Below are positions 21,368 through 57,208 of a stretch of 64,000 bases of DNA, in pieces. The notes under the pieces are model-generated. The model had not been told where the DNA came from, did no database searches, and worked only from the letters and a program-made list of their open reading frames with translations. Within the stretch, counting starts at the first letter, position 1, and each line of letters begins with the position of its first letter. A program made the translations under genes and the position numbers. The DNA comes from Polaromonas glacialis (GTDB taxonomy: Bacteria > Pseudomonadota > Gammaproteobacteria > Burkholderiales > Burkholderiaceae_C): contig NZ_KL448326.1 of the NCBI RefSeq assembly GCF_000709345.1, positions 25,952 to 89,951 on the forward strand. The letters are read 5' to 3'.

Positions 21368-21418
21368 TTTCAGCTTCATTTTTCGAGTAGTTTTTCACCC
21401 TAAAACGGAGACTTCACC

Positions 21419-22225
21419 ATGATCAAGCATCTGCAACGCCGCGTATTTACCAGCACCGCGCTGGCCCTTGGCCTGGCCGCCACCTTGGGCACCTGGGCAC
21501 CCGCCGCGAGCGCACAAAGCGTGGCCGACATCAAGAAAAAAGGCGAGCTGACCGTTGGCATGCTGGTGGACTTTCCGCCCTACGGCACCATGAACAGCAG
21601 CAACCAGCCCGACGGCTACGACGCCGACGTGGCGCGCCTGATGGCCAAGGACCTGGGCGTCAAGCTCAACCTGGTGCCGGTGACCGGCCCGAACCGCATT
21701 CCGTTTCTTCTCACCAACAAGGTCGATCTGCTGGTCGCCTCGCTGGCCGTGACGCCCGAGCGCGCCAAGCAGGTGCAATTTTCCAAGCCGTACGCGGCCG
21801 CCAGCATCGTGCTCTACGGCGACAAGAAGGCTGACCTGAAGGCGCCGGCCGATCTAAAGGGCAAGCGCGTTGGCGTCGCCCGCGCCAGCACCCAGGATGT
21901 GGCGCTGACCGCCGTGGCGCCCGAGGGCACCGAAATCCGCCGGTTCGACGACGACGCTTCGGCCATGCAGGCGCTGCTGTCGGGACAGGTTGACGCCATC
22001 GGCTGCTCGACCACGGTGGCCGCGCAGATTGCCAAGCGCGCCCCGGCCAATGCGTTTGAAAACAAGTTCATCCTGCGCCAGCAGGTCATGGGCGTGGCCA
22101 TGCGCCCCGGCCAGGACGAACTGCTCAAGACTGTCGATGACTTTGTCGCCCGCAACACGGCCAACGGCGAACTCAACAAGTTGTATCAAAAATGGCTGCA
22201 GACAGACCTGCCCAAGCTGCAGTAA
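21419..22225 (+). CDS. Periplasmic substrate-binding protein, PAAT type
   Basis: A 268-aa exported binding protein. A GGAGAC site precedes the ATG. The signal peptide covers about 1-33 (ALALGLAATLGTWAPAASAQ). The mature family-3 solute-binding fold has LTVGMLVDFPPYGTMNS near 42, GYDADVARLMAKDLGVKL near 63 and DLLVASLAVTPERAKQV near 100. The usual Arg that contacts amino-acid carboxylates is present in the TPERA stretch. In this operon the ligand may be 2-ketogluconate or a related acid. Confidence 0.87.
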   Translation: MIKHLQRRVFTSTALALGLAATLGTWAPAASAQSVADIKKKGELTVGMLVDFPPYGTMNSSNQPDGYDADVARLMAKDLGVKLNLVPVTGPNRIPFLLTNKVDLLVASLAVTPERAKQVQFSKPYAAASIVLYGDKKADLKAPADLKGKRVGVARASTQDVALTAVAPEGTEIRRFDDDASAMQALLSGQVDAIGCSTTVAAQIAKRAPANAFENKFILRQQVMGVAMRPGQDELLKTVDDFVARNTANGELNKLYQKWLQTDLPKLQ

Positions 22226-52263: not shown

Positions 52264-52788
52264 ATGACCAGAACACCGCATTCACATCACTCCCTTGAAT
52301 TTAAAGAGCAGGCATTGCTCAAAGCCAGGCATCGCGGCACGCGTTCCGTTATCAGCGTTGCCAGTGAACTCAACATGTCCGCCGGCACGCTCAGGAAGTG
52401 GCTGCAAAGCGCAAGCAAGAAAACCGGCACGATAGCCCCCCCGGTGTCCGCTGCAACTGCTGCACTGGACGGCCCGGCGTCGGCCTGGACGCCTGCACAG
52501 CGTTTGATGGCGCTGCAGCAAAGCTATGCACTGGATGACATGGCCCGGGCCAGCTGGTGCCGCGAGCATGGCGTGTTCGAGCATCAGCTGGTGCAGTGGC
52601 ACCAGGCGTTTTGCACCCCTGCCGTGCCCGCTTCACGCGAGGCGAGCGGCGCCTTTCGCGAGCTGCAGCGCCAGCATGATCAGTTGCAGCGCGAACTCAG
52701 GCGCAAGGAAAAGGCGCTGGCCGAGGTGGCTGCCTTGCTGGTGTTGCAAAAAAACTTCCAGGCGCTGTTGGAGGGCGCGGACAAATGA
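52264..52788 (+). CDS. IS3-like element, OrfA (helix-turn-helix protein)
   Basis: A 174-aa protein. The N-terminal helix-turn-helix (FKEQALLKARHRGTRSVISV, then ASELNMSAGTLRKWLQ) resembles IS3/IS911 OrfA. A C-terminal coiled coil runs from about 125 (RELQRQHDQLQRELRRKEKA). It is longer than usual OrfA proteins. The stop overlaps the orfB start (ATGA). It probably binds the element ends. Confidence 0.75.
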   Translation: MTRTPHSHHSLEFKEQALLKARHRGTRSVISVASELNMSAGTLRKWLQSASKKTGTIAPPVSAATAALDGPASAWTPAQRLMALQQSYALDDMARASWCREHGVFEHQLVQWHQAFCTPAVPASREASGAFRELQRQHDQLQRELRRKEKALAEVAALLVLQKNFQALLEGADK

Positions 52789-53512
52789 CGTCCGTCCAGC
52801 AGCGCCAAAAGTTGCTCGGCCTCATTGACAAGGCCTGCGCCGACGGGGCGCGTTTGCAACCGGCTTGCCGCCAGATCGGCTTGTCGTGCCGCAGCGTGCA
52901 GCGCTGGCAGCGCTCTGAGGCGGCCGAGGGTGACCAGCGCCCTTCAGGCAAGCGGCGCTATGCACGCCCGGCCAACAAGCTGCTTGAAGAAGAGCGCCAG
53001 GCCGTGATGGCCACGCTCAACAGCGAAGCGTTCAAGGACTTGCCGCCGAGCCAGATCGTGCCTCGCCTGGCCGACAGCGGCGTCTATGTGGCGTCCGAAT
53101 CCACGATGTACCGCCTGCTGCGCCAGGAGGGCCAGTTGGCCCATCGGCGCGCAGAGCGTTCAGCGCAAAAGCGCAGCCGGCCGCGCGCCCTGGCCGCGAC
53201 CGGGCCCGATCAGGTGTTTTGCTGGGATATCACGTACCTGCCAACCCAGGTGCGCGGCCAGCACTTCTACCTGTACCTGTTCGAGGATCTGTTCAGCCGC
53301 AAGATCGTTGGCTGGCAGGTGTTCGATTGCGAGAGTGCCGAGCTGGCCAGCCAGTTGCTGCGCGACATCTGCGCGCGGCACAGCATTCCCCCGGGCCAGC
53401 TGACGGTGCATTCGGACAATGGCGCGCCGATGAAGGGCGAGACCATGCTGGCCACGATGCAGCGCCTGGGAGTGGCGCACACGCGCAGCCGGCCGTCCGT
53501 AAGCAACGACAA
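52785..53512 (+). pseudogene. IS3-like transposase OrfB, 5' part (interrupted)
   Basis: Codons 1-242 of the DDE transposase. The first Asp is in FCWDITYLP near 145 and the second in VHSDNGAPMKG near 210. After GACAA at 53508-53512 the coding sequence is cut by the serine-recombinase element. The rest, with the catalytic Glu, resumes in frame at 56861. Without the insertion the protein would be 357 aa. Confidence 0.9.
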
Positions 53513-53515
53513 GGA

Positions 53516-55606
53516 CTACGTCGCATACTGCACTCCTTCCGTACGTTCAGGTGGAACCGTTGCCTCCAGACGCCGCTGCGAGAGCTTGGCGCCGGGCTTC
53601 TTGCGGGGAGCCAGGTCGCCTGGTGGTTCATACAAGGACTCGTTCTTGTCGCTGTAGGCGTGGCCTCGCAACAGGCCGCGCCGCAGCCAGATCTTGACAG
53701 TGTGGGGGGTGACGTGCAATGCGTCGGCCATTTCCTGCAGTGTCAACATGCCGCGCTCGCGCAATCGGTCGTACCGCGGTTTGAGATGGTAGTCGCGCGC
53801 CAAACGCGCGATCATCCGTGTATTGAATGCCGATCCCGCACCCGGCGCGAATCCACGAGCATTGAGAACGTCGGCGATCTGCGCCGTGGTGTGTTCGTCA
53901 AGCAAGTGGTCTATCTCCTGGACCACGGCAGTGGGCGTCACACGCTGCTGCCAGGAGCACTTGGGCAGGGGTAGATGCAGCGACTTGCGCGCACCACCCT
54001 TGAAGCGAATATGTATGGTGATCTTGTCGTCACGATTCAAGGTGACGTCCTCCACCAGCAATCTGACCATGCGTTTGCGATCGCGATCGAGCGTACCCGG
54101 ATCGTTCCACAGGCGAGGGAAGTCGGTGGCCAGTTGCACGATCGCTTTGCGCTGCTCGTCGGTCAACAAGCGTGCGTCTTCATCCCGGCGACGGGTGTAC
54201 TCCTCGCGTGCATCGCCCAGCGCGCGCAGCTTCTCGTTCCAATCCGCCTCCAGGGAGTCGGCCACCAGCCGGTTGTCGGGATCAACGCGCATATAGCGTC
54301 GCTGCGCCAGTTCGCATTCGTACTGCGCGCGTTCAACATTGGCATGGCGCATGCGGTCCGCCTCTTCAAAGCGAGACTGCAGTTCCTGTTGAACGACCAG
54401 CGACACCTCGAGCGCAACCGGATTGACCGCCTCGATGAGCACCGCTGCGACCGCTTGGTCAATGCCGGTTCCGGGCACGTGTTGGCACACCGCTTGACCG
54501 TGCTTGATGCGTTCGCGCTGGCATATGTAGTCGGGACACAATTGCCCATGACGATCGTGATAGCGAACCGTCATGCGTTGACCGCAGCGCCCACACAAGA
54601 CCATTCCTTGCAGCAGCGCAGGACCCTCGCGCGGTGGTCCGCGCCGCCGATCGGTGCCCATCGCCTGCGCGTTGGCATGCAGGCGATGCTGGTTGAGCTC
54701 GAACTCGTCCCAAGAGATATACCCCGCATGGTTACCCGGGATCAACGTGACCCATTCATCGCGCGGCATTCGACGCAGCCGGGTGCGGCCATCGATGGTC
54801 CTGACCGTATGGCAACGTCCATAAACAAACGCTCCAGCGTATCGGGGACTGTGCAGCACCCGAAGCACCTGGTCGTGCGTCAGGCTGCCCCACAGCAGTT
54901 CGCCTTTGTGGGGACCCTTGGCGCAGCGCCGCGGAAATGCCAGCTTCTCATCACGCGCGGCCTTGACCGTGGCGCAGGCTGAGCCGGTGCGGGCGAACGC
55001 CGCGAACAGCCACCTCAGGCAATGCTGGACTTGCTGATCAGGATCGAGCACGAGCGTGCCATCGCTGGTGTAGATCAACCCCACGGGCGGGCGCATCTCC
55101 AACTCGCCGCGGCGCGCCTTGTTCAGGATTCCGCCCTGCAGGCGCGCGCGCAGCACATGCAGTTCCGCCTCGCTCATGGTGCCCTTCAGGCCGAGCAGCA
55201 ACCGGTCGTTGAAGTGTGCCGGGTCATAGACTCCATCCTCGTCGCAGATCAGCGTCGAGGTGAGCGCGCAGATCTCCAGCAACCGATGCCAGTCCATGGA
55301 GTTGCGTGCCAGGCGCGAGACCTCCAGACCCAGCACGATGCCCGCGTGGCCCATGCCGACTTCGGCGACCAAGCGCTGGAAGCCTTCGCGATCCGTGGCG
55401 GCGCCGGACTGGCCAAGATCGGTATCGATGACGATGACGCGTTCGTCTGCCCAGCCAAGGGCCACGGCGCGTTGGCGCAAGCCGTACTGGCGCTTGGTGC
55501 TCTCGGTGTTCTCGAACACCTGGCGCAGCGTCGACTGGCGGACATAGAGGTAGGCGTTGCGCTTGAGGTGACTGGCCTGCACCTTCTGATGGTGATCATT
55601 CAACAT
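53516..55606 (-). CDS. Large serine recombinase
   Basis: A 696-aa recombinase. The resolvase domain is at about 14-165: catalytic Ser in YLYVRQST near residue 24, LGLEVSRLARNSMDWHRLL near 92 and the LHVLRARLQGGILNKA helix near 150. A recombinase domain follows (about 190-300), then a zinc ribbon with Cys pairs in VLCGRCGQRM near 338 and YICQRERIKHGQAVC near 358. A long coiled-coil-like region and a C-terminal helix-turn-helix (LTLQEMADALHVTPHTVKIW near 640) complete it. It should integrate and excise the element. Its start overlaps the small upstream gene; its end reaches to 3 bp from the element boundary. Confidence 0.92.
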   Translation of the reverse strand: MLNDHHQKVQASHLKRNAYLYVRQSTLRQVFENTESTKRQYGLRQRAVALGWADERVIVIDTDLGQSGAATDREGFQRLVAEVGMGHAGIVLGLEVSRLARNSMDWHRLLEICALTSTLICDEDGVYDPAHFNDRLLLGLKGTMSEAELHVLRARLQGGILNKARRGELEMRPPVGLIYTSDGTLVLDPDQQVQHCLRWLFAAFARTGSACATVKAARDEKLAFPRRCAKGPHKGELLWGSLTHDQVLRVLHSPRYAGAFVYGRCHTVRTIDGRTRLRRMPRDEWVTLIPGNHAGYISWDEFELNQHRLHANAQAMGTDRRRGPPREGPALLQGMVLCGRCGQRMTVRYHDRHGQLCPDYICQRERIKHGQAVCQHVPGTGIDQAVAAVLIEAVNPVALEVSLVVQQELQSRFEEADRMRHANVERAQYECELAQRRYMRVDPDNRLVADSLEADWNEKLRALGDAREEYTRRRDEDARLLTDEQRKAIVQLATDFPRLWNDPGTLDRDRKRMVRLLVEDVTLNRDDKITIHIRFKGGARKSLHLPLPKCSWQQRVTPTAVVQEIDHLLDEHTTAQIADVLNARGFAPGAGSAFNTRMIARLARDYHLKPRYDRLRERGMLTLQEMADALHVTPHTVKIWLRRGLLRGHAYSDKNESLYEPPGDLAPRKKPGAKLSQRRLEATVPPERTEGVQYAT
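53524..53526 (-). other. Start codon of the DUF5372 frame, usable only in the circular form
   Basis: ATG at 53526-53524 overlaps the end of the recombinase gene. Read through the circular junction (53526 to 53512, then 56861 downward) it continues in frame into the DUF5372 coding sequence. In the integrated state it runs into host DNA instead. Confidence 0.75.
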
Positions 55607-55887
55607 ACGAGGGCCTCCTGCCGATTGAACAAAACCATACTGGCCAGCAGCATTGCAACGTCCCTGTGCAACTGCGCTGGACAGATCTGCTGGTCACCCT
55701 GTGGCGGCGCCGGCACCGGCGTCGGCGCCACGCACTGACTCCACACCTGCATCCAGGCGCACATACCGCCACGGGTGAACAAAGCCAGGCCCTGGGGTTG
55801 AACGGCCGATCGGCCAAGCACCTGTTGGCGCAGATCTTCGTAGCGTGCAACCAGACTGTCGTCGCGCAGCAGCGGCGCAAGCGACAC
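55600..55887 (-). CDS. Small accessory protein of the recombinase element
   Basis: A 95-aa frame from a GTG at 55887. It overlaps the recombinase start by 7 bp and begins 5 bp after the helix-turn-helix gene stop, so it is tightly coupled to both. It contains DDSLVARYEDLRQQVLG and a C-terminal hydrophobic helix (LHRDVAMLLASMVLF). I do not recognise a family. The same frame is open far upstream, so it could also be made as a -1 frameshift extension of the helix-turn-helix protein at the A9 run. Confidence 0.65.
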   Translation of the reverse strand: MSLAPLLRDDSLVARYEDLRQQVLGRSAVQPQGLALFTRGGMCAWMQVWSQCVAPTPVPAPPQGDQQICPAQLHRDVAMLLASMVLFNRQEALVC

Positions 55888-55892
55888 GGGTA

Positions 55893-56357
55893 TCAGCGCC
55901 GTTTTTTTTTGCGCAGCAACTGCCGCTCGATGCTGCGAGGGTGAACTTGCACCCCGAAATTTTGGTGCACCAACTCGGCCAGGCGCTCCGCACGAATATC
56001 CGGATCGGTAGCACGCGCCTCGCAGATGAACTGCAGCACCGTTGGCGTGAGTTTGTGGCCACCGTGCGGACCACTCTTGTGGGCGAGTAAAGCGGCCAGG
56101 CCGCCGCTCTCGAAGGCCGTCATGGCCTGGTAGAACGAGGGACGCGAAAAGCCGCAGGCCTTGGCAGCCTCGCTGATCGAGCGCTTGTCGATGTTGACCA
56201 GTCGCAGCATCTCGTACTTGACCTGCAGCACATCGTCGGGGTCGAAGAACGCGTTGTTGGCGAACAGTGCGTGAGTGACGCCGTGCGCACGCGGGTTGAG
56301 CGCAGCGTGCTGGCGCAGGACCGCTTGCTTGTCGTGCTTGTCTCGATCTATGGGCAT
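55893..56357 (-). CDS. Helix-turn-helix protein of the recombinase element
   Basis: A 154-aa protein. The ATG at 56357 has a GAGGAGG site. It has a helix-turn-helix in the middle (EMLRLVNIDKRSISEAAKAC, then FSRPSFYQAMTAFESGG, about 50-85). The C-terminal part (IRAERLAELVHQNFGVQVHP, then RSIERQLL) looks like the transposase-type winged helix of IS630-like proteins. It is the first gene of the element's operon and may control excision. It ends three codons after an A9 run. Confidence 0.82.
   Translation of the reverse strand: MPIDRDKHDKQAVLRQHAALNPRAHGVTHALFANNAFFDPDDVLQVKYEMLRLVNIDKRSISEAAKACGFSRPSFYQAMTAFESGGLAALLAHKSGPHGGHKLTPTVLQFICEARATDPDIRAERLAELVHQNFGVQVHPRSIERQLLRKKKRR
55902..55910 (-). 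other. A9 slippery run at the end of the helix-turn-helix gene
   Basis: Nine A residues on the minus strand, read as three Lys codons. A -1 slip here leaves the helix-turn-helix frame (which stops at 55893) and enters the open frame of the 55600-55887 gene without an intervening stop, giving a fusion of about 250 aa. Confidence 0.5.
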
Positions 56358-56398
56358 GGACCCTCCTCGGCTCAGGCCAGTCAATGTATGTAAATAGG

Positions 56399-56426
56399 AT
56401 TATGTTCGGCATGAACACACTGTCAA
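56399..56426 (-). promoter_or_regulatory. Sigma-70-like promoter of the recombinase-element operon
   Basis: On the minus strand a perfect -35 TTGACA (56426-56421), a 16-bp spacer and a -10 CATAAT (56404-56399). Transcription would start about 35 nt before the helix-turn-helix ATG at 56357. Two direct repeats of CTTTACACT (plus strand, 56524-56532 and 56547-56555) lie further upstream and may be regulator sites. Confidence 0.75.
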
Positions 56427-56567
56427 GGTGATCACTGCAAGCGATAGGAGGTTTCATGTGCAGCATGTATGTTGAGCTCCCATGCCAGTAGCATCGAACA
56501 GATGCAAGACAAGACGTAATCGCCTTTACACTTTGCACAATATCTTCTTTACACTGAAGGGGCCGGC

Positions 56568-56861
56568 TCATGACTTCATTGCCTCGATCAGTTGCACCAA
56601 TTCGAGGAGTTCTTGAGCCCGGAACGCGGCACGTCCCCGCGCCACAGCATTGAAAGGGTCTTCGGCGACCAGGTCGGTCCAGACCGCCGGCATCGAGTGC
56701 GAGCCTCCTGCTGTGTCGTGGAAAAAAACCCTGTCTTCGCGCCAGTTCCTCCCACGCTCGACCAGATCGAACACCTGACCGAACAGCGGATGGTGCGGAT
56801 GGGTGACGCGAAAAGGTCGTCGCTCAACGTCGCCATGCGGCGCAGTTGACTGCTCGCTCCA
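56568..56861 (-). CDS. DUF5372 protein, start codon separated by integration
   Basis: This 97-codon frame encodes most of a DUF5372 protein (RVTHPHHPLFGQVFDLVERG, then RNWREDRVFFHD, WTDLVAEDPF, AQELLELVQLIE). DUF5372 is a small family found with this recombinase type. In the integrated state it lacks a good start; only a GTG at 56774 is available inside the conserved domain. Joining the element ends adds ATG plus four codons from 53526-53512 (MRRSP) and gives an intact 102-aa protein. The gene thus spans the recombination site of the circular form. Confidence 0.8.
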   Translation of the reverse strand, partial: WSEQSTAPHGDVERRPFRVTHPHHPLFGQVFDLVERGRNWREDRVFFHDTAGGSHSMPAVWTDLVAEDPFNAVARGRAAFRAQELLELVQLIEAMKS

Positions 56862-57208
56862 ATCCCTATGTCGAATCGGCGTTCAGAACCCTGAAGTACC
56901 GCCCGCAATTGCCTGTCAAGCCGTTTGAAAACCTGCTGGCCGCAAGGCGCTGGGTGACCGAGCTGGCGCACTGGTACAACCATCAGCATCACCACAGCGC
57001 GATTGGCTTCGTGACTCCAGCCCAACGCCATGCCGGCCTGGACCGGGCATTGCTTGAGGAGCGATCGCTCGTCTATGAACGGGCACGCCAGGAAAATCCC
57101 CAGCGCTGGTCAAGGCAGACCCGCCAGTGGGCGCATGTCGATGTCGTGCACCTCAACCCAGAAAACCCACAAATCAAGGAGCTTCGAAACACTCAAAAGG
57201 TAGCCTGA
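56861..57208 (+). pseudogene. IS3-like transposase OrfB, 3' part (interrupted)
   Basis: The last 116 codons of orfB, in frame with the 52785-53512 part when the recombinase element is removed. It starts NPYVESAFRTLKYRPQLP, which contains the catalytic Glu, and continues through WYNHQHHHSAIGFVTPAQRH. Cut off from its start it is not expected to be made as a working enzyme. Confidence 0.9.

Follow-up and report, generated by a model that had tools for sequence, protein, structure and literature searches.

Whether a mobile element can carry a protein-coding gene that is whole only after the element has left the chromosome is the question raised by a 64,000-nt stretch of Polaromonas glacialis DNA (assembly GCF_000709345.1, contig NZ_KL448326.1, positions 25,952–89,951, forward strand), referred to below as the window. 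Within it, an IS3-like orfB gene is interrupted by an element at 53513–56860 which, with one copy of a 2-bp AA core, makes up 3,350 bp and carries its genes on the minus strand. On the left the target sequence ends in GACAA, with its last base at 53512; the left copy of the core occupies 53511–53512, in agreement with multi-site copies in relatives, and the right copy is read from the window sequence at 56861–56862. Deletion of the 3,350 bp in silico gives an uninterrupted IS3-type OrfB containing ...SNDNPYVESAF.... When the ends of the element are joined around one core, the minus strand reads ATG CGA CGT AGT CCT TGG AGC GAG ... with no stop and encodes a protein of 102 aa, the 97-residue body of which (56571–56861, minus strand, stop at 56568–56570) matches the Pfam family DUF5372 (PF17342; 96.6 bits, 9e-28). 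In the integrated state the 14-nt start of this gene, ATG CGA CGT AGT CC (53513–53526, minus strand), lies at the other end of the element, and no in-frame ATG, GTG or TTG is present between the core and the VTHP motif of the domain. The initial annotation had proposed these borders, the restored OrfB and the joined 102-aa gene, all of which were confirmed. The explanation that accounts best for the whole locus, with a probability of roughly 85%, is that DUF5372 is the last gene of an operon and is completed in a circular form of the element, with the attachment site of the element (attP) lying inside the gene and the target site (attB) being formed by codons of DDE transposases.

The order of the genes from the right end, namely the DUF5372 body, a region of ~190 bp, a helix-turn-helix (HTH) gene, a small open reading frame (ORF) and the recombinase, supports the earlier proposal that in the joined form DUF5372 becomes the last gene of an HTH–small–recombinase operon. 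The recombinase (53516–55606, minus strand, 696 aa) combines Resolvase N-terminal, Recombinase and zinc-ribbon (Zn_ribbon_recom) domains in one protein, all three above the Pfam cut-off. In keeping with the elements of large serine recombinases (LSRs), the element has a 2-bp core, an attB unlike its attP and no long target duplication, and it shares with insertion sequences (IS) its small size, multiple copies and absence of cargo (HTH, small ORF, recombinase and DUF5372 only). The start codon of DUF5372 overlaps the stop codon of the recombinase in the window element (ATGCGACGTAG), which makes translational coupling possible. The attachment (att) arms GGTGCAGT and ACTGCACC, which are probably the recombinase sites, are inverted repeats that overlap this start codon, a fact missed in the initial annotation; conservation of the start codon by itself consequently proves little. 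The left arm, ACTGCACT (minus strand AGTGCAGT), lies at 53527–53534 and the right arm, GGCGCAGT (minus strand ACTGCGCC) and inverted with respect to the left one, at 56839–56846, both being conserved in relatives.

A scan of genome contigs gave 293 relatives, of which the best 80 were kept and analyzed together with four further loci (L022, which is the window element, L023, L028 and L031), making 84 loci. The best 80 bear the labels of Pseudomonadota, Acidobacteriota, Actinomycetota, Myxococcota, Verrucomicrobiota, Planctomycetota, Chlamydiota and others, and 77 of them have a DUF5372 match, which ends 800–1100 nt ahead of the recombinase match in 75 of the 77 and ~4.5–4.8 kb ahead in L075 and L081. 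The frame of the junction was counted in the 67 loci in which both att arms, found by ungapped consensus scoring that is blind to frame, and the domain could be located, with frame ignored; the 17 loci dropped were those with no DUF5372 match (L034, L047, L097), with no domain anchor (L046, L081, L087, L091, L094) or with an arm under the threshold (L040, L045, L048, L052, L065, L079, L090, L092, L101). The element ends have the approximate consensus GAGGTGCAGT-ATG-AAG-CGT-AAG-CC-TT at the 3′ side and TT-GG-N4-AGTC-N-TCAACTGCACC at the 5′ side. In all 67 loci the junction is in frame with no stop in the joined part, as expected from the earlier claim that DUF5372 is complete only across the joined ends. 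The distance from core to domain is 52, 55 or 58 nt, and a quick tree of 65 recombinases places four changes among these length classes, all in multiples of three. At their best left-arm position, five of the nine sub-threshold loci are in frame (L040, L045, L052, L079, L090) and four are out of frame with scores of 8–10 (L048, L065, L092, L101), the latter being read as failures of arm detection; a looser first pass had five of 72 rows out of frame (L048, L065, L079, L092, L101), in which the arm had been placed either on the domain or at a great distance from it.

The stretch between core and domain behaves as coding sequence in one frame. It has no stops in the DUF5372 frame in any of the 67 loci vs stops in 17 and 52 loci in the two other frames, and its ratio of nonsynonymous to synonymous differences (pN/pS) is 0.54 in frame vs 0.99 and 1.11 out of frame (48 pairs below 30% divergence); for the domain itself the values are 0.28 in frame vs 1.46 and 1.51. 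The pattern of substitutions indicates that purifying selection acts on the core-to-domain stretch only in the DUF5372 frame.

The position of the junction can also be fixed from the target, by a procedure independent of the arms and of the DUF5372 frame, in which every TT of the left-end region counted as a core if it was followed, on the target strand, by an open frame with glutamate as the fifth codon. A core was found by this target-only test in 46 loci, 43 of which have a single candidate, in the DUF5372 frame in 43/43; the remaining three loci each offer two candidates, of which one or both are in frame, and overall 47 of the 49 candidates are in frame. A chance coincidence of att arm and start codon, considered as an explanation of the junction, is disfavored by the frame-specific stops, the pN/pS values and this target-only placement of the core.

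When the flanks are rejoined at the core, its AA opens an asparagine or lysine codon four codons ahead of a glutamate, which, in these transposase families, we take to be the catalytic one of the DDE triad. The resulting motif, [N/K]xxxE, fits 51 of the 61 readable sites, examples being D^NPYSEALF, D^NAVAETFF, D^KAKVEAGV and A^KGRVERANQTLQDR. Of 51 downstream flanks compared with Pfam, 21 match rve_3, 16 rve_2 (overlap not counted out) and 16 Mu-transpos_C_2, and an rve match is found in 34 of 56 upstream flanks. The flanking sequences thereby show that the target is not one IS3 orfB but the [N/K]xxxE motif as it occurs across DDE transposases, a range broader than the initial annotation had noticed. 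In the window, the N-terminal part of the target orfB (52785–53512, plus strand) is cut inside the N codon following SND, and its C-terminal part with NPYVESAF (56863–57208, plus strand) matches rve_3.

Copies in the same genome agree with these borders. The recombinase has nine matches there, six belonging to the family of the window element and three to a second family. The six window-family copies, in two kinds of target IS, have identical ends. Five of the six have common flanks, with identity in the pairs compared extending over 285 bp or more on one side and 401 bp or more on the other; these copies have therefore probably been duplicated or have moved along with their IS host. The sixth, the C3 copy, sits in a different IS3-like orfB, at the homologous site and the same codon. 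An unfilled site, GACAATCC, is present in two partial or frameshifted IS relatives of the same genome (C5, ~21,369–21,575; C4, ~177,898–178,086). A further IS3 relative (L124; G000 C2, ~150158–150883) has an open frame of 392 codons with GACAGTCC, where AG replaces AA at the core and changes the N codon to S; this single observation may represent an escape variant. Recombinases of the second family are 52–53% identical to that of the window, and their three copies occupy two different sites, one next to a fragment of istA and an istB-like gene, the other assigned to istA on its codons alone. If the target codons are used to place the core, the junction of the second family reads ATG AAG TCC ACG CCT TCT CAT AGG, again in frame; without regard to the targets, a T-run would permit an out-of-frame reading as well.

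An in-phase start codon is present 14 or 11 nt ahead of the core in 66 of the 67 loci. At −14 it is ATG in 44 loci, GTG in 17 and TTG in one (62/67); ATG or TTG stands at −11 in seven loci, three of which also have GTG at −14, and of the five loci with no ATG, GTG or TTG at −14, four have ATG or TTG at −11. Out-of-phase codons between −5 and −20 comprise two ATG, thirteen GTG and one TTG, all the GTG and TTG codons being at −16, two bases ahead of the −14 codon. A Shine–Dalgarno (SD)-like tetramer precedes the start in 62/67 loci. The start is found in 27 of the 28 loci in which the recombinase stop lies ahead of it, in 36/36 in which the stop overlaps or follows it and in 3/3 with an interrupted recombinase; the idea that the start codon is a by-product of the recombinase C-terminus is disfavored by its retention in those 27 loci. 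Downstream of the core, 46 of the 67 loci have no ATG, GTG or TTG ahead of the domain (65 have no ATG), and so lack an internal start for an intact DUF5372 gene within the integrated copy; in these the core-to-domain stretch must be translated from a start elsewhere.

The comparison of sequences establishes the anatomy of the element, the in-frame junction, its conservation across many phyla and selection on the frame up to the core. A number of observations weigh against the circle-completed gene. Relaxing the divergence limit to 40% and 50% raises the in-frame pN/pS of the core-to-domain stretch to 0.74 and 0.83, the other frames being at 0.99–1.06, and the 14-nt 3′ segment, which is short and overlaps the recombinase frame in many loci, has no clear frame-specific pN/pS (0.80, 1.94 and 0.37 for the three frames). 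The start codon sits inside the att arms, and the 3′ scoring consensus included the ATG and SD-like bases, so that the counts of starts and SD-like tetramers lean towards the consensus; the position of the core is fixed independently of that consensus by multi-site copies and target codons. L102 has no start codon at −14 or −11. Some integrated copies could make a protein, as judged from in-frame starts inside the element ahead of the VTHP motif in 21 of 67 loci (2 of them ATG) and from an in-frame ATG, GTG or TTG in the flank ahead of the stop in 19 of 61. Finally, three distant DUF5372 matches beside recombinase fragments (L115–L117) have in-frame ATGs upstream of the DUF5372-like ORF, L115 and L116 being viewed within larger surrounding regions. 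Such distant ORFs near recombinase fragments, with in-frame ATGs upstream (L115–L117, L136, L137), are possibly decayed or differently built elements. DUF5372 is uncommon: counting the window's genome in both samples, it occurs in 5 genomes out of 200 in the same family and in 7 out of 398 in the same phylum. The six other cases in the phylum are L115–L117 and three that lie with a recombinase of this type (L112, extended as L138, L113 and L114).

The circle itself was looked for in several ways; at limited sensitivity, neither a circle nor a tandem copy nor a transcript came to light, a result that also counts against the proposal. No terminal overlap was found in short contigs for 80 loci; of 45 pattern matches to recombinase relatives in viral contigs none was confirmed; a junction pattern, which detects only 39 of the 67 reconstructed junctions, found nothing in 49 genomes; and the joined rhizobial protein gave no match starting at residue 1 among 60 listed of 110 plasmid records. 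No sigma-70-like site was found in the 162 nt around the joined window junction (80 nt on each side), although a consensus scan of this kind cannot exclude one. We infer the circle from the architecture of the element and from how serine recombinases work, and it is from such a circle that DUF5372 would be made.

In the mechanism proposed here, the attB of the large serine recombinase would be formed by the [N/K]xxxE codons that are conserved in DDE transposase genes, and attP would lie within the 5′ end of DUF5372, the last gene after promoter, HTH, small ORF and recombinase. The recombinase end of the element carries an SD-like sequence, the start codon and 4–5 codons of DUF5372, and integration at the AA core would part this start from the body, placing the two at opposite ends and leaving the integrated gene without a start of its own. 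In the chromosomal state the operon would make the HTH, small and recombinase products, following which excision would rejoin start and body in frame into an HTH–small–recombinase–DUF5372 operon whose transcript could cross the closed junction, and DUF5372 would be a product existing only in the circle (or in a tandem). There it may act at the recombination step, favoring integration or blocking re-excision: made only after excision, the protein could not trigger it, and acting on the next step would be the most economical use. This role is put forward tentatively, as somewhat short of an even chance. Slightly more doubtful is the wider proposal of excision as a genetic switch, in which the circle-only DUF5372 would make the recombinase send the circle into a new site and the element would be a specialized parasite disabling transposons across phyla through their catalytic-glutamate codons. 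In the initial annotation the product had been suggested to mark, maintain or re-integrate the circle; the gene layout and the operon position behind that interpretation are borne out, and the role remains a guess.

The model of the 97-residue body, built on a 62-row alignment, has a predicted local distance difference test score (pLDDT) of 78.8 and a predicted template modeling score (pTM) of 0.54, with residues 1–11 below 50 in pLDDT, and consists of four strands followed by two helices. Its best structural matches are SH3-like barrels (the KOW domains of Spt5 and NusG, S4e, Tudor; VIA-align Z up to 6.1), Foldseek gave no match at an E-value of 0.001 or better, and the DUF5372 profile has only weak matches to solved structures, the best being Alba-like at E 0.041. 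As these matches are weak, the assignment of an SH3/KOW-like barrel plus helix is tentative, and the model fits, no more than that, a small protein binding nucleic acid or protein.

Other uses of a circle-only product have to be considered. Repression of the operon or limitation of copy number after excision is unlikely, yet it is an option that keeps real weight: the stretch separating the stop of DUF5372 from the beginning of the HTH gene contains two 14-nt direct repeats (ATCGCCTTTACACT and ATCTTCTTTACACT, 56519–56555), possible operators, and a sigma-70-like promoter, TTGACA-16-CATAAT (56399–56426, minus strand; 11/12 matches, with 0.5 sites expected from shuffles), and the gene that attP divides in phage BPs codes for a repressor (PMC4557955). 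The operon already has an HTH protein, however, and the predicted SH3/KOW barrel plus helix is weak evidence against a usual repressor. That the product maintains or replicates the circle would agree with its being made only when a circle exists, but is improbable given a protein of only 102 residues and the absence of any Pfam replication domain from the recombinase, HTH protein, DUF5372 and small ORF.

The ends could, alternatively, be kept only for binding of the recombinase to GGTGCAGT...TT...ACTGCACC, with the ATG and the frame being incidental and DUF5372 a leftover. The inverted-repeat arms that overlap the start codon would suit such an account, as would the success of ungapped scoring, which implies that the arm-to-core spacing hardly varies. 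Against it stand the stops and pN/pS values of the core-to-domain stretch, specific to the DUF5372 frame, its length changes in multiples of three, the purifying selection on the domain, and the start codon, which shifts in phase between −14 and −11 while the arm stays fixed; selection for recombinase binding alone has, in our view, only a small chance of being the answer. Expression of DUF5372 by integrated copies, with initiation in the target gene or inside the element and the circle being irrelevant, is the least probable account and very unlikely, since the flank and internal starts counted above make it possible in a minority of loci only, the 46 loci mentioned have no start inside the element, the flank differs by site so that no start could be kept there, the window flank has seven codons before a stop, none of them ATG, GTG or TTG, and the internal GTG at 56774 would drop the first predicted strand.

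Further support for the circle-completed gene comes from a rhizobial group (L119, L120), whose recombinase is 51% identical: the layout is the same and the junctions are in frame when read by hand, the core of L120 being placed by analogy in a T-rich stretch. These elements lie in or beside IS66 tnpB; annotated tnpB fragments flank L120 on both sides and L119 on one, and the recombinase may accordingly have changed its target in this group. Apparent counter-examples were also considered. Among 40 listed of 129 matched plasmid records, the alignments of two (H20, H40) begin at residue 1 of the joined window protein, with 43–44% identity, and H20 (L031) has the same split structure as the window element despite this alignment; a gene annotated Y4bD/Y4pK (L118) has the usual left arm. 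The annotated starts of DUF5372 vary relative to the domain between plasmid records (L026–L028, L030), which is expected if the gene's start sits at the element's opposite end. In the Acidobacteriaceae strain KBS 96, three different sites are occupied by copies whose recombinase sequences are identical (L106, L107, L108), which makes this strain a good candidate for showing activity.

The remaining genes of the element precede the recombinase. The HTH protein (55893–56384, minus strand) is of the transposase-type winged HTH kind, with matches to HTH_29, HTH_32 and HTH_28, and ends in a run of nine A at 55902–55910. The small ORF (55600–55911, minus strand; QKKTALIPVSLAPLLRDDSLVARYEDLRQQVLG..., start not defined) has no match in Pfam or PHROG when scanned in the right frame, and its counterpart in relatives also sits after the HTH gene. 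It carries on in another frame beyond the nine-A run, which suggests a programmed frameshift fusion; 47/66 loci have an A-run of at least seven where the HTH gene ends, and in several actinobacterial loci CCCAAAAG stands in its place.

Junction promoters are a feature of IS911-type circles and of Tn4451 tnpX; as in the present element, joined ends there alter the expression of an element gene, but a promoter is switched or assembled in those systems, whereas here it would be a start codon and a reading frame. The same likeness and the same difference apply to ICEKp1, which shows state-dependent promoter switching (PMC13023037). The 'suicidal' SSV-type integrases of archaeal viruses and plasmids (PMC8371274) share with this element a gene with the attachment site inside it; integration divides this gene, and only the circle has it in one piece. 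They differ in that here the serine recombinase gene remains intact and the downstream accessory gene DUF5372 is split, the host is bacterial, and the protein has serine recombinase domains and is not a tyrosine recombinase. In mycobacteriophage BPs attP likewise lies inside a gene, the repressor gene, whose product differs between free and integrated states; integration there shortens the C-terminus to give a stable, active repressor (PMC4557955), unlike the present case, in which integration removes the start codon and N-terminus and only the joined form would give a product. Also described are LSRs sharing a single conserved site within a coding sequence and a multi-targeting LSR whose core is TT (PMC10083194); the passages on them mention neither transposase active-site codons as a target nor a split accessory gene. 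None of the SSV-type integrases, BPs and ICEKp1 is this case. A full-text search found no paper on DUF5372; searches of titles only, with most subscription journals outside their coverage, found none describing such an element among those on serine recombinase circles, LSR targets and IS21/istA, and only unrelated ones on Y4bA/Y4bD. The initial annotation, too, had known of no prior description of a circle-reconstituted gene in this element type, and the titles searched contain none.

If the proposal is correct, bacteria of many phyla would have a mobile element with a protein gene that exists only in its excised form, which would complement the archaeal suicidal integrases, and the odd starts of annotated DUF5372 genes would be explained. 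The gene would be a built-in reporter of excision and would offer a way into how serine recombinases turn from excision to integration. The choice of target would mean that one mobile element exploits the most constrained codons of competing transposases, and could supply recombinases with a codon-anchored attB.

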